A stretch of DNA of 64,000 nucleotides from assembly GCF_009939295.1 (NCBI RefSeq), contig NZ_WVIC01000023.1, forward strand, positions 1 through 64,000, in the 5' to 3' direction. Every line of letters starts with the position of its first letter. Position 1 is the stretch's first letter. This document shows, one piece after another, positions 11,912 to 52,748 of this stretch. The DNA comes from Petrachloros mirabilis ULC683 (lineage in GTDB: Bacteria > Cyanobacteriota > Cyanobacteriia > Thermosynechococcales > Thermosynechococcaceae). A model generated the notes under the pieces. It had not been told where the DNA came from and did not search any database. It was given only the letters and a program-made list of their open reading frames with translations. A program made the translations under genes and the position numbers.

Positions 11912-12294
11912 CTGGTTGACTGACAAAACTTCAATTTGGGGGGTTCTGACTATCTCACAGTCCCCCAGAATGGGGGATGTAGGGGGCGAACGCAGGGTGA
12001 AATCGTTTTTCTCAGACTTGTGTTTACACCGTAGCCCAAGGGGCTACGGTGTAAACACATCTCTAGTTCTCCGTGTTCCACGCTGCATTCGCCCCCCCAA
12101 CCCCCCAAAATTGGGGGGAGAAATCCGAAAGTTAGAACTAGTTCCCCCCAGAATTACGCCCTGCGGGCACGCTGCGCGAGGGGGGGCTAGGGGGGCGAAT
12201 GCAAAGATTTTGAATTCAAGACTTGTGTGTACACGGTAGGCCCCTTGGGAGAGGGATTGGGGGTGAGGGCGTACAACTTTTGTCAGTCAATCAG
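11912..12294. mobile_element. 383-bp composite miniature element with 9-bp target duplication
   Basis: The ends are CTGGTTGACTGACAAAA on the left and TTTTGTCAGTCAATCAG on the right, an inverted repeat with one mismatch. Perfect direct repeats CTCTGTACC flank it at 11903-11911 and 12295-12303, so it inserted with a 9-bp duplication. Inside are the right half of one CTACSGTGTACACACA-type element (about 11930-12036), then a nearly full copy (12044-12239) and a G-rich core. No transposase is encoded, so mobilisation would be in trans. Open frames crossing it are not considered genes. Confidence 0.75.
12044..12239. mobile_element. Nested CTACSGTGTACACACA-type miniature element
   Basis: The terminal inverted repeats are CTACGGTGTAAACACA and TGTGTGTACACGGTAG. 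The interior has paired G/C runs of the type CCCCCCAA...TTGGGGGG and an imperfect palindrome around ACGCCCTGCGGGCACGCTGCGCG. It is the same family as the copies at 13879-14079 and 32675-32875, and lies inside the larger 383-bp element. The arms extend outward through CCCAAGGGG and CCCCTTGGG, so the target site is hidden. Confidence 0.65.
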
Positions 12295-13878: not shown

Positions 13879-14079
13879 CTACGGTGTACACACAAATCTA
13901 AGAAGATGATTTAAAAGCCTCTAACATCCTTACACTCGCCCCCCTGCCCCCCCTCGCGAAGCGTGCCCGAAGGGCGTAATTTGGGGGGTTCTGAATATCT
14001 CACAGTCCCCCAGAATGGGGGATGTAGGGGGCGAATGCAGGGTGAAATCGTTTTTCTCAGACTTGTGTGTACACGGTAG
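13879..14079. mobile_element. 201-bp CTACSGTGTACACACA-type miniature element
   Basis: The terminal repeats are CTACGGTGTACACACAA and TTGTGTGTACACGGTAG. The length is exactly that of the copy at 32675-32875. The interior has the GCGAAGCGTGCCCGAAGGGC palindrome-like segment and the CCCCCAGAATGGGGG hairpin. No matching target duplication is seen at its flanks, so one flank may have been rearranged. Nothing in it looks protein-coding. Confidence 0.65.
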
Positions 14080-32674: not shown

Positions 32675-32875
32675 CTACGGTGTACACACATCTCTGGACA
32701 AACCCATTCCACCCTGCATTAGCCCCCCCGACTCCCCCTCGCGCAGCGTGCCCGCAGGGCGTAATTCTGGGGGGAGATCAACAAAAACTGGGACTATTTC
32801 CCCCCCAGAATTGGGGGGCTAGGGGGGCGAGCGCAAAGATTTTGAATCTTTTCAAGACTTGTGTGTATACGGTAG
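32675..32875. mobile_element. 201-bp CTACSGTGTACACACA-type miniature element with imperfect target duplication
   Basis: The ends are CTACGGTGTACACACA and TGTGTGTATACGGTAG. Flanks GTGTTGTCTG (32665-32674) and GTGTTGCCTG (32876-32885) form a 10-bp direct repeat with one mismatch. Inside are CGCGCAGCGTGCCCGCAGGG and the paired C/G runs of this family. It separates the pseudouridine synthase gene from pyrC and explains why the pyrC frame appears open upstream of its real start. Confidence 0.7.
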
Positions 32876-40274: not shown

Positions 40275-40393
40275 TTGCACTTGCCCCCTAGACCCCCAAT
40301 TCTGGGGGGAAATGAGTAGAGTTTTTAGCTTTCTTCCCCCAAAATTACGCCCTGCGGGCATACTGCGCGAGGGGGGCGGGGGGGCTAATCCAG
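40275..40393. repeat. G/C-run dispersed repeat
   Basis: Starting at TTGCACTTGCCCCCTAGACC, it contains CCCCCAATTCTGGGGG and the ACGCCCTGCGGGCATACTGC segment common to the CTACSGTGTACACACA elements, but its outer ends are not clearly inverted. It continues beyond the inserted 154-bp element at 40394 with AATCCAGGGATG. It is the same type as the repeat at 59090. It and the inserted element fill the gap 40236-40622. Confidence 0.5.
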
Positions 40394-40547
40394 ACGTGAG
40401 TTCGACAGCTCTCGTCTGCCCTCACCCCAACCCCTCTCCCAATCCTGGGAGAGGGGCTAAAACGTTGAATTTCTGCTCTGTTCCCCCTCTCCCAATGTTG
40501 GGAGAGGGGGCTAGGGGGTGAGGGCGGATAAGTCGTCGAACTCACGT
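40394..40547. mobile_element. 154-bp ACGTGAGTTCGAC miniature element, 7-bp target duplication
   Basis: Perfect 13-bp ends ACGTGAGTTCGAC/GTCGAACTCACGT bound 154 bp. AATCCAG is duplicated at 40387-40393 and 40548-40554. The core holds two hairpins (CTCTCCCAATCCTGGGAGAG and CTCTCCCAATGTTGGGAGAG). It has the same length as the copies at 49105 and 51918. It inserted inside an older G-run repeat. Confidence 0.8.
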
Positions 40548-40622
40548 AATCCAGGGATGAATGAGGCTTTTTAGACAGCCTTTAGCCACCAATGTCTACT
40601 TTTGGGAAAGCGAAGGAAGCAC

Positions 40623-49002: not shown

Positions 49003-49079
49003 AAACGTTTCAGCCTGCAATTTAAGGGGTGGAATTCTCCACAGAGTAGCACGGACGTTTCAGTTTGCGGCAGCCTTTG

Positions 49080-49470
49080 TCAAGGTTCCGAACAATCTTG
49101 ATCAACGTGAGTTCGACAGCTCTCGTCTGCCCTCACCCCAACCCCTCTCCCAATCCTGGGAGAGGGGCTAAAACGTTGAATTTCTGCTCTGTTCCCCCTC
49201 TCCCAATGTTGGGAGAGGGGGCTAGGGGGTGAGGGCGGATAAGTCGTCGAACTCACGTTTGATCAGGTGTCTGAGGGTGCGATGGTCTACGACCGGGCTT
49301 TGCCCATCGCAGCAATTCCCAAATCGCAATCTCACAATCCGGAAACGCTGAGGGCGCGAGGATGTCTTGCTCCGAGAGCGTTTGCTGCACCCTATAGCCC
49401 GCCGGCTCCGGCTCCCGAAACACATGCAGGCATCGCTCCTGCACATCCAAAACCCAATGGTTATGCGGAG
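49080..49470 (-). pseudogene. 3' fragment of a Uma2-family gene, split by an element
   Basis: The frame HWVLDVQERCLHVFREPEPA and on to GRRPSHPQTPDQT matches the C-terminal third of the Uma2 gene at 51217, including downstream non-coding sequence (TAGCACGGACGTTTCAGTT). The first two thirds are absent. The 154-bp element at 49105-49258 splits the last codons. It is a decayed partial duplicate. Confidence 0.8.
49105..49258. mobile_element. 154-bp ACGTGAGTTCGAC miniature element, TTGATCA duplication
   Basis: Same ends and length as the copy at 40394. TTGATCA is present at 49098-49104 and 49259-49265. The paralogous sequence at 51234-51240 has a single TTGATCA with no element, so insertion into this copy is directly visible. 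Its core carries CTCTCCCAATCCTGGGAGAG and CTCTCCCAATGTTGGGAGAG. Confidence 0.88.
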
Positions 49471-50986: not shown

Positions 50987-51216
50987 AAAGGATTTAGCGA
51001 TAATTCAGTGCAGATGGCTGCGACAGCCGGGGTTATGCTGAGTGTTTTTATTCACAACAATGTCATGGATTGTCCGAGTGGTCAATTCACCAAATCTCCT
51101 GAATCGTTCCGAGCTAAAGACTTATGGAGGTTGTCAAACATTTTGTCAACCTATCGGCGCATGAGGTTGAATTTTCCACGGAGTAGCACGGACGTTTCAG
51201 TTGGCGGCAGCCCTTG

Positions 51217-51849
51217 TCAATGTTCGACACAATCTTGATCAGGTTTCTGAGGGTGCGATGGTCTACGACCGGGCTTTGCCCATCGCAGAAACTCCCAAAT
51301 CGCAATCTCACAATCCGGAAACGCTAGGGGCGCGAGGGTGTCTTGCTCTGAGAGCGTTTGTTGCACCCCATAGCCCGTTTGCCCTGGCTCCCGAAAAACA
51401 TGCAGACATCGCTCCTGCACATCCAAAATCCAATACTCCCGAATGCCAGAGCGCCCGTAAACCGGCATCTTCAGATCCCGATCTCGCCGTAGGGTACTGT
51501 CTGCCACCTCAATCAGCCAAAAAATTTCCCCCGGTGTTGGATGGTGATCCTCATAGTCCAATGGGTCAATCTTTACCACCGCTACATCCGGTTCCGGTTC
51601 CGAAATATCGCTCAACTGCACCGGATCTTGAAACCGCAGCAGCGCCCGTCCCATCAGCAGCCGGGACAAAACCCGATCAATGCGGGTCACTGCCGCACTG
51701 TGTGCCGTCCCCTTCGCTGCCATGGTGTAGAGCTGTCCCTCAATCAATTCCACCCGCTCATCTGCCGCCAAAATTCCTGCATCTACCATGCGGTGATACT
51801 CTTTCACGCTGAGCGATCTCAGTTCTGCGGCGATCGTCATCGTCCCCAT
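51217..51849 (-). CDS. Uma2 family endonuclease (DUF820)
   Basis: The 210-residue protein has the DUF820 pattern: LSVKEYHRMVDAGILAADER, VELIEGQLYTMAAKG, the PD-(D/E)XK core SEPEPDVAVV and FWLIEVADSTLRRDRDLKMP, and IREYWILDVQERCLHVFREP. Such genes are multicopy in cyanobacteria; they are predicted nucleases of unclear role. A partial copy of its 3' end lies at 49080. An ATG at 51849 is used; a second Met follows at codon 4. Confidence 0.88.
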   Translation of the reverse strand: MGTMTIAAELRSLSVKEYHRMVDAGILAADERVELIEGQLYTMAAKGTAHSAAVTRIDRVLSRLLMGRALLRFQDPVQLSDISEPEPDVAVVKIDPLDYEDHHPTPGEIFWLIEVADSTLRRDRDLKMPVYGRSGIREYWILDVQERCLHVFREPGQTGYGVQQTLSEQDTLAPLAFPDCEIAIWEFLRWAKPGRRPSHPQKPDQDCVEH

Positions 51850-51917: not shown

Positions 51918-52071
51918 ACGTGAGTTCGACAGCTCTCGTCTGCCCTCACCCCAACCCCTCTCCCAATGTTGGGAGAGGGGCTAAAACCTTGAATTTGTGC
52001 TCTGTTCCCCCTCTCCCAATGTTGGGAGAGGGGGCTAGGGGGTGAGGGCGGATAAGTCGTCGAACTCACGT
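51918..52071. mobile_element. 154-bp ACGTGAGTTCGAC miniature element without matching flanks
   Basis: Ends and length equal those of the copies at 40394 and 49105, but both hairpins here use the CAATGTTG loop. The 7-bp flanks TTATTCT and AATTGAA do not match. The element contributes the last codons of the minus-strand gene ending at 52035. Confidence 0.8.
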
Positions 52072-52748
52072 AATTGAAGCAACTCACGGGTAGAAACGTC
52101 GATATCAGTAATCAAAGCTCGGCCATCAGCCAGATCTGCGCCAGCGGGTTGAATGGTTCTGACCCAATTGATTTGGTAAGGATAACCAGGAACTTGATAG
52201 GTGTCTTGGTGGAAGAATGAATCTGTGGGCAGGTCTAGTCCTGGCGGGGCAAGGGGGACAGTATTTAGATAATGGGAGGGCTGTTCGTTATTTTCTAGGG
52301 AGATACGAGCGATGTAGCGAACCCCTAATCGCTGGATGGTAGTTGGTTCAGCTAGCTCTAGGAAAATAGTCCAGAAGCGGATGGCTTCAGTTTGGAAGCT
52401 GTTCCATCCTGCATAGGGACTCAAACGACTGAAGACCACTCCTGTCGGGGTAAACTGTGCTACATGGTGGTTTTGTTCATCTTGGAGGCGGAAGCCGTTC
52501 CATTGGGTGCGGTGGAACAGTGCGGAAGACCCATCGGCTGCTCCGGTAGCCGCGATTTCCATACCATGCAGAGAGTGGAGGATGGGATAGTCAGGCAACC
52601 GTTGAGTTAGCTCTGCTCGGAGGGCTTCGGATTCCAGCGTTTTGCCAGCATGAGCTTGCCAATGAATCACAGCCTCGATGATGGGTGCGTCCTTCAAGGT
52701 TGGAAACGGCTCGGTGAGATCGATGCTGAGCTTAGGCAACGGACTCAT
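52035..52748 (-). CDS. TIGR04255 family protein, C-terminally altered
   Basis: The 237-residue frame has TIGR04255 features: KDAPIIEAVIHW near the start, VVFSRLSPYAGWNSFQTEAI, TIQRLGVRYIARISL and ALITDIDVS. After STRELLQL the frame runs into the 154-bp element, which encodes REFDDLSALTP and the stop. Family members usually continue with another helical segment of some 30-40 residues, so the gene appears truncated by the insertion. Function of the family is unknown; many are encoded near mobile or defence genes. Confidence 0.75.
   Translation of the reverse strand: MSPLPKLSIDLTEPFPTLKDAPIIEAVIHWQAHAGKTLESEALRAELTQRLPDYPILHSLHGMEIAATGAADGSSALFHRTQWNGFRLQDEQNHHVAQFTPTGVVFSRLSPYAGWNSFQTEAIRFWTIFLELAEPTTIQRLGVRYIARISLENNEQPSHYLNTVPLAPPGLDLPTDSFFHQDTYQVPGYPYQINWVRTIQPAGADLADGRALITDIDVSTRELLQLREFDDLSALTP

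Follow-up and report, generated by a model that had tools for sequence, protein, structure and literature searches.

A 154-bp MITE of Petrachloros mirabilis ULC683, most likely moved by an IS982-family transposase, carries an inverted pair of triplex-type motifs

A gene-free sequence of 154 bp breaks the 3' end of a truncated Uma2 paralogue in a 64,000-nucleotide stretch of the cyanobacterium Petrachloros mirabilis ULC683 (contig NZ_WVIC01000023.1, positions 1 to 64,000; hereafter the window), which raises the questions of whether it arrived there by transposition and, if so, which enzyme moved it. The element is bounded by perfect 13-bp terminal inverted repeats (13/13), contains no transposase open reading frame, and has TTGATCA on both sides, as an initial annotation made from the window alone had described (Table 1). 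That annotation had also pointed to a paralogous Uma2 3' end with one TTGATCA and no element; this empty site exists, although it lies one base to the right of the place given for it (51234-51240). With the element and one TTGATCA deleted, the 77 bp on its left (49028-49104) joined to the 193 bp on its right (49266-49458) are identical to 51165-51434 at 244 of 270 positions (90%), with no gap across the insertion point, which demonstrates that the two Uma2 3' ends are homologous; the intact paralogue is the open reading frame at 51217-51849, a Uma2 gene (PF05685, E = 1.9e-35). The observation is confirmed, and its reading as an insertion with a 7-bp duplication holds at this site but not as a fixed length for the family, in which duplications range from 5 to 9 bp with a mode of 7. 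The original interpretation is supported with corrections on the empty site, the duplication length, the copy at 51918, and the enzyme.

Table 1. Coordinates in the window of the focal element, its insertion site and empty counterpart, its further copies, and the two motifs of its body
Feature	Position	Strand	Remark
Focal 154-bp element	49105..49258	+	Identical to 16 other genomic copies
Left terminal inverted repeat, ACGTGAGTTCGAC	49105..49117	+	
Right terminal inverted repeat, reverse complement of the left	49246..49258	-	
Left target-site duplication, TTGATCA	49098..49104	+	
Right target-site duplication, TTGATCA	49259..49265	+	
Occupied paralogue, truncated Uma2 3' end broken by the element	49028..49458	+	
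Unoccupied paralogous sequence, Uma2 3' end and downstream bases	51165..51434	+	90% identical, gapless
Unoccupied TTGATCA target in the Uma2 3' end of the paralogue	51235..51241	+	
Second copy, 100% identical	40394..40547	+	AATCCAG at 40387-40393 and 40548-40554 (7 bp)
Third copy, 97% identical	51918..52071	+	No target-site duplication
First intrastrand-triplex-type motif	49129..49167	-	Hairpin 49142-49167 and outer third strand 49129-49139; motif definition from PMC4666352
Second intrastrand-triplex-type motif	49194..49236	+	Hairpin 49194-49221 and outer third strand GGGGTGAGGGC

The 154-bp family is a MITE. The exact 13-bp end, for which a genome-wide search had been proposed, has 81 matches in the genome compared to 0 for a reversed control pattern; a whole-genome search with the element scored 40 places, and at least 46 distinct full copies were recovered from the fetched stretches. 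Exact target duplications of 5 to 9 bp border 39 of these 46 copies (7 bp in 26, 8 bp in 8, 6 bp in 3, and 5 and 9 bp in 1 each), 3 more have a duplication with one mismatch, and 4, including the 51918 copy of the window, have none. The 26 exact 7-bp duplications provide the recurrence elsewhere in the genome on which the original interpretation depended, and they compare with 0.57 exact 7-mer matches expected in all when right flanks are reassigned among copies, a value about as large as the chance restoration of true pairs would produce. Seventeen copies show no difference across the full 154 bp, and a second subfamily has 11 identical members; amplification is therefore recent, in agreement with the suspicion, raised from the copies of equal length in the window, that the family was recently active.

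A further copy, additional to the 46 and with a mutated right end, lies within a spacer of a CRISPR array of 16 repeats (locus L100, G000:C77; element at 1128-1281, array at 69-1428) and has TGAAATA (7 bp) on both sides. The repeat-to-repeat spacing at this insertion is 237 bp, or 76 + 154 + 7, and the other spacings are 73 to 87 bp; without the element and one duplication the spacing is therefore a normal 76 bp, which provides a second, independent empty-site argument.

The two additional copies reported for the window are both real, but the one at 51918 is flanked by the dissimilar sequences TTATTCT and AATTGAA. The last codons and the stop of the open reading frame at 52035-52748 (minus strand) come from the right end of this copy (52035-52071), and the insertion probably replaced the 3' end of that frame.

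Ends that start with AC, together with duplications that vary around 7 bp, pointed to the IS982 family, in which the repeats start with AC and the direct repeats are of variable length (PMC7335449). Compared to the published IS982 consensus AC(N)6T(N)5TT (PMC7335449), the element has the AC and the T at position 9, with GC or AC rather than TT at positions 15-16, and its spread of duplication lengths is in keeping with the variable target duplications of that family. A pattern scan of GTDB species genomes recovered the same paired ends, 134 to 166 bp apart, in at least 112 stretches, with hosts among the cyanobacteria (Nostoc, Amazonocrinis, Tolypothrix, Cyanothece SIO2G6, and a Thermosynechococcaceae MAG) and outside them (Bacteroidales, Calditrichaeota, Acidobacteria, and Phycisphaerales); duplications at these elements are again mostly 7 bp. 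Following unpaired ends led to Hormoscilla sp. GUM202, where a 1,358-bp IS982-family insertion sequence is bounded by the same ends (ACGTGAGTTCGAY). Its termini, ACGTGAGTTCGAC and ACGTCAGTTCGAC, match those of the element at 13 of 13 and 12 of 13 positions, its three copies (L395, L396, and L368) have the duplications GGCTTCA, CTATTAC, and TGGGCA, and its product scores 177 bits against the NF033520 model of the IS982 transposase (cut-off of 130), with the transposase frame interrupted in all three copies seen. Full-length IS982 genes are also present in the GTDB family to which P. mirabilis belongs, with ends ACCTGAGTTCGACA (L403, a 12/13 match to the element ends), ACGTGAGTTCTGGATA (L408 and L421), or similar. 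Hormoscilla sp. GUM202 additionally has a 1,086-bp element (L397, 301-1386) with the same kind of ends, a 6-bp duplication (GGATCG), and no transposase; it holds an open reading frame that, read by eye, is nucleotidyltransferase-like and may represent cargo carried between ends of IS982 type.

The mover had been described as unknown. Judging by the ends found elsewhere it is most likely an IS982-family transposase, and the question is thereby largely answered, although the gene was not found in this draft genome. As had been noted, no transposase with matching ends lies within the window; beyond it, the draft genome (G000; 99.96% complete, 79 contigs) has no NF033520 match, and a search for transposase genes flanked by the element ends recovered neither IS982 nor DDE_Tnp_1 genes so bounded. 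An autonomous partner in the same genome is usual for MITEs and is not required; that none with the same ends was found lowers our confidence in an IS982 derivation. The element shares with the insertion sequence only the terminal 12 to 13 bp, and nothing from the interior of the insertion sequence was recognised. Taken as a whole, the material is very probably best explained by a MITE with 13-bp ends ACGTGAGTTCGAC that is moved in trans by an IS982-family transposase. A DDE enzyme of this family would cut and join the 13-bp ends, and transposition would yield target duplications of 5 to 9 bp, mostly 7. From the shared termini we infer that such an enzyme may have mobilised the copies seen here and that the source of the enzyme may since have been lost, may lie in an assembly gap, or may only have been visiting. 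The locus thus offers a clean, self-contained case of MITE insertion in which the likely transposase family can be named, the enzyme itself not having been found though many copies are identical.

Comparable pairs of MITE and insertion sequence have been described. In P. gingivalis, MITE239 and ISPg3 carry ends ACGTGAGTTCGA and ACGTCAGTTCGA (PMC4596501). Like MITE239 (left end ACGTGAGTTCGATATAAAGGAA) and MITE700, of which there are about 10 to 20 copies, our element is noncoding and has ends in common with an insertion sequence (there ISPg3, ends ACGTCAGTTCGA), but it differs from them in phylum and in body, and ISPg3 is placed in IS5 by the same source (PMC4596501). IS195 is an IS982 member with 12-bp inverted repeats (PMC7335449), and ISPg3 and IS195 may be the same element. 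MITECca01 of Cardinium (PMC9769881) is likewise an IS982-family MITE of similar size (∼240 bp) that has spread in one genome, but its parent ISCca4 is intact in the Cardinium genome and some internal sequence of the parent is kept, whereas for the present element no parent turned up and the match is confined to the ends. IS982-type MITEs are therefore already known, and the less expected part of the present family is its triplex-motif body.

The body consists of an inverted pair of a predicted intrastrand-triplex motif (CCCTCTCCC-loop-GGGAGAGGG-loop-GGGGTGAGGG), and the pyrimidine-purine hairpin with its adjacent purine-rich third strand is present in all three window copies. Because this motif resembles one measured by Holder et al. 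in 2015 (PMC4666352), the body may physically form a triplex. The motif of that study, TM/PIT, is common in cyanobacteria and tied to instability, and in E. coli it showed no association with mobile elements (PMC4666352). The motif is the same here, in two copies of inverted orientation; pairs in E. coli mostly face the opposite way, whereas the pair described here is the payload of a transposon. We considered E. coli triplex-motif pairs as possible fellow MITEs and rejected them, since neither terminal repeats nor duplications surrounded the five that were examined. As a single strand, the element has a fold of very high stability (z = -11.8); the hits in Rfam were confined to microRNA models and scored well under the gathering thresholds, and phage records had no match to the element. 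Plasmid matches were to the body only, four of five being on Pseudanabaena plasmids.

Several comparisons demonstrate that body and ends behave as separable modules. Repeats matching element positions ∼25-132 occur in 108 of the 194 genomes of relatives, while exact ends in a pair are seldom found (4 of 291). Among elements with ACGTGAGTTCGA ends, which are not independent because several come from one genome, a triplex-type fold is found in 65 of 84 from cyanobacteria and in 0 of 30 from other phyla; it occurs in none of 2,280 shuffled bodies of such elements. Conversely, in 5 of 18 body matches examined (leaving out one mis-set window, L161) the body is enclosed by terminal repeats of an unrelated kind that have duplications of their own, compared to 0 of 104 control positions: inside GTAACTACTCAG ends with 8-bp duplications (L130 and L132) and inside three other terminal repeats with 9-bp duplications (L140, L145, and L147). 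A literature search on these other repeats found nothing relevant. In Cyanothece SIO2G6, a body-bearing element is nested in another of the same kind. Tentatively, and at somewhat less than even chances, we suggest that the inverted triplex pair could be an exchangeable payload of several unrelated cyanobacterial transposase systems (ACGTGAGTTCGA with 7 bp, GTAACTACTCAG with 8 bp, the GGGTGCATCCCA type with 9 bp, and others), that repeated capture by MITEs could spread the motif, and that the motif may in turn help the elements, for instance if extruded hairpins draw the ends close to one another. The present family ties to transposition in cyanobacteria a repeat that occurs in hundreds of bacterial genomes and was not found to be mobile in E. 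coli; its means of spread was not known before, and swapping ends and bodies makes the route testable. The separable triplex-motif body is the part worth following.

Two other accounts of the copies have to be set against transposition by an IS982-family enzyme. A transposase of another family that recognises similar ends, such as one of IS5 or IS4 type, might be the mover, given that ISPg3, with nearly the same 12-bp ends, is filed as IS5 (PMC4596501) and that P. mirabilis itself has two DDE_Tnp_1 genes, one of them an intact frame of 385 aa. We rejected these two genes as candidates, since the intact one (L211) is bordered by the unrelated inverted repeat CTTAGTGGTGCAGAAAA and neither locus has matching ends; moreover, those matching-ended elements found here that have a transposase of their own encode IS982 products. 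The transposase genes of other kinds between matching ends are read as belonging to insertions nested in MITEs. One, in a genome of the same family (G003:C128, L213), had appeared to be an autonomous partner from its ends, 7-bp duplication (AAACAGA), and DDE_Tnp_1 gene, but it is an IS5-type element with GGCTATCCATTG ends (703-2002) inside a MITE of the 154-bp family; the other (G083, L193) has ends 1.8 kb apart, outer flanks that do not match, and a gene that we take to be IS1182-like. A mover from outside IS982 is accordingly improbable. Less credible again is the view that recombination has dispersed a static palindromic repeat (REP/BIME-like) and that the flanking 7-mers are due to chance: the body is indeed a widespread triplex/hairpin repeat among relatives and four copies are without duplications, but exact duplications accompany 39 of the 46 copies, the Uma2 paralogue and the CRISPR spacer are two clean empty-site comparisons, and the ends, which are exact, are found again in other phyla, there too with duplications.

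The copies also vary internally. Four of the 46 have a body that is inverted with respect to the ends or symmetrised, single hairpins are flipped in several, and there are length variants of 104, 146, 150, and 179 bp. The genome also has three solitary 22-bp units, ACGTGAGTTCGACAGCTCTCGT, that correspond to the left end of the element (L093 at ∼2114, L094 at ∼2241, and L101 at ∼2178; the first base is changed in one) and are flanked by the 7-bp duplications CCCGTCC, TAATGTG, and, with one change, CCATAAA/CGATAAA. The segment missing from them runs from CTCTCGT (element bases 16-22) to the terminal CTCACGT (148-154), two near-repeats in direct orientation that mark the base of the palindrome, and slipped-strand deletion is the simplest account because the lost segment lies between these near-repeats. 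The palindromes of the body would readily lose or flip DNA in replication, an instability that could underlie inverted bodies and hairpins as well as internal deletions and the 22-bp units, the last being in that case nearly precise excision scars. We consider it unlikely, if less so than the accounts above, that these units are instead a minimal mobile element: each has its 7-bp duplication and its own ends are near-inverted (ACGTGAG/CTCTCGT), but only three are present beside about 50 full elements, the junction falls exactly where CTCTCGT repeats CTCACGT, as slipped-strand deletion of a palindrome predicts, and none was found among 20 unpaired ends of the relatives G003 and G031.

In size, the 22-bp scars are comparable to the small dispersed repeats (SDR) of cyanobacteria, which Elhai et al. 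in 2008 reportedly described as 21 to 27 bp long, mobile-looking, and sometimes inside minitransposons; unlike those repeats, they are accounted for here as what is left of a complete MITE. A 28-bp repeat of the window, TTACGCCCTGCGGGCACGCTGCGCGAGG, is of comparable size and resembles cyanobacterial small dispersed repeats; it occurs four times (12154-12181, 13952-13979, 32737-32764, and 40345-40372) whereas shuffling predicts 0, and the 179-bp copy of the element has a related insert of 25 bp in one of its hairpin loops (L098, ∼2490).
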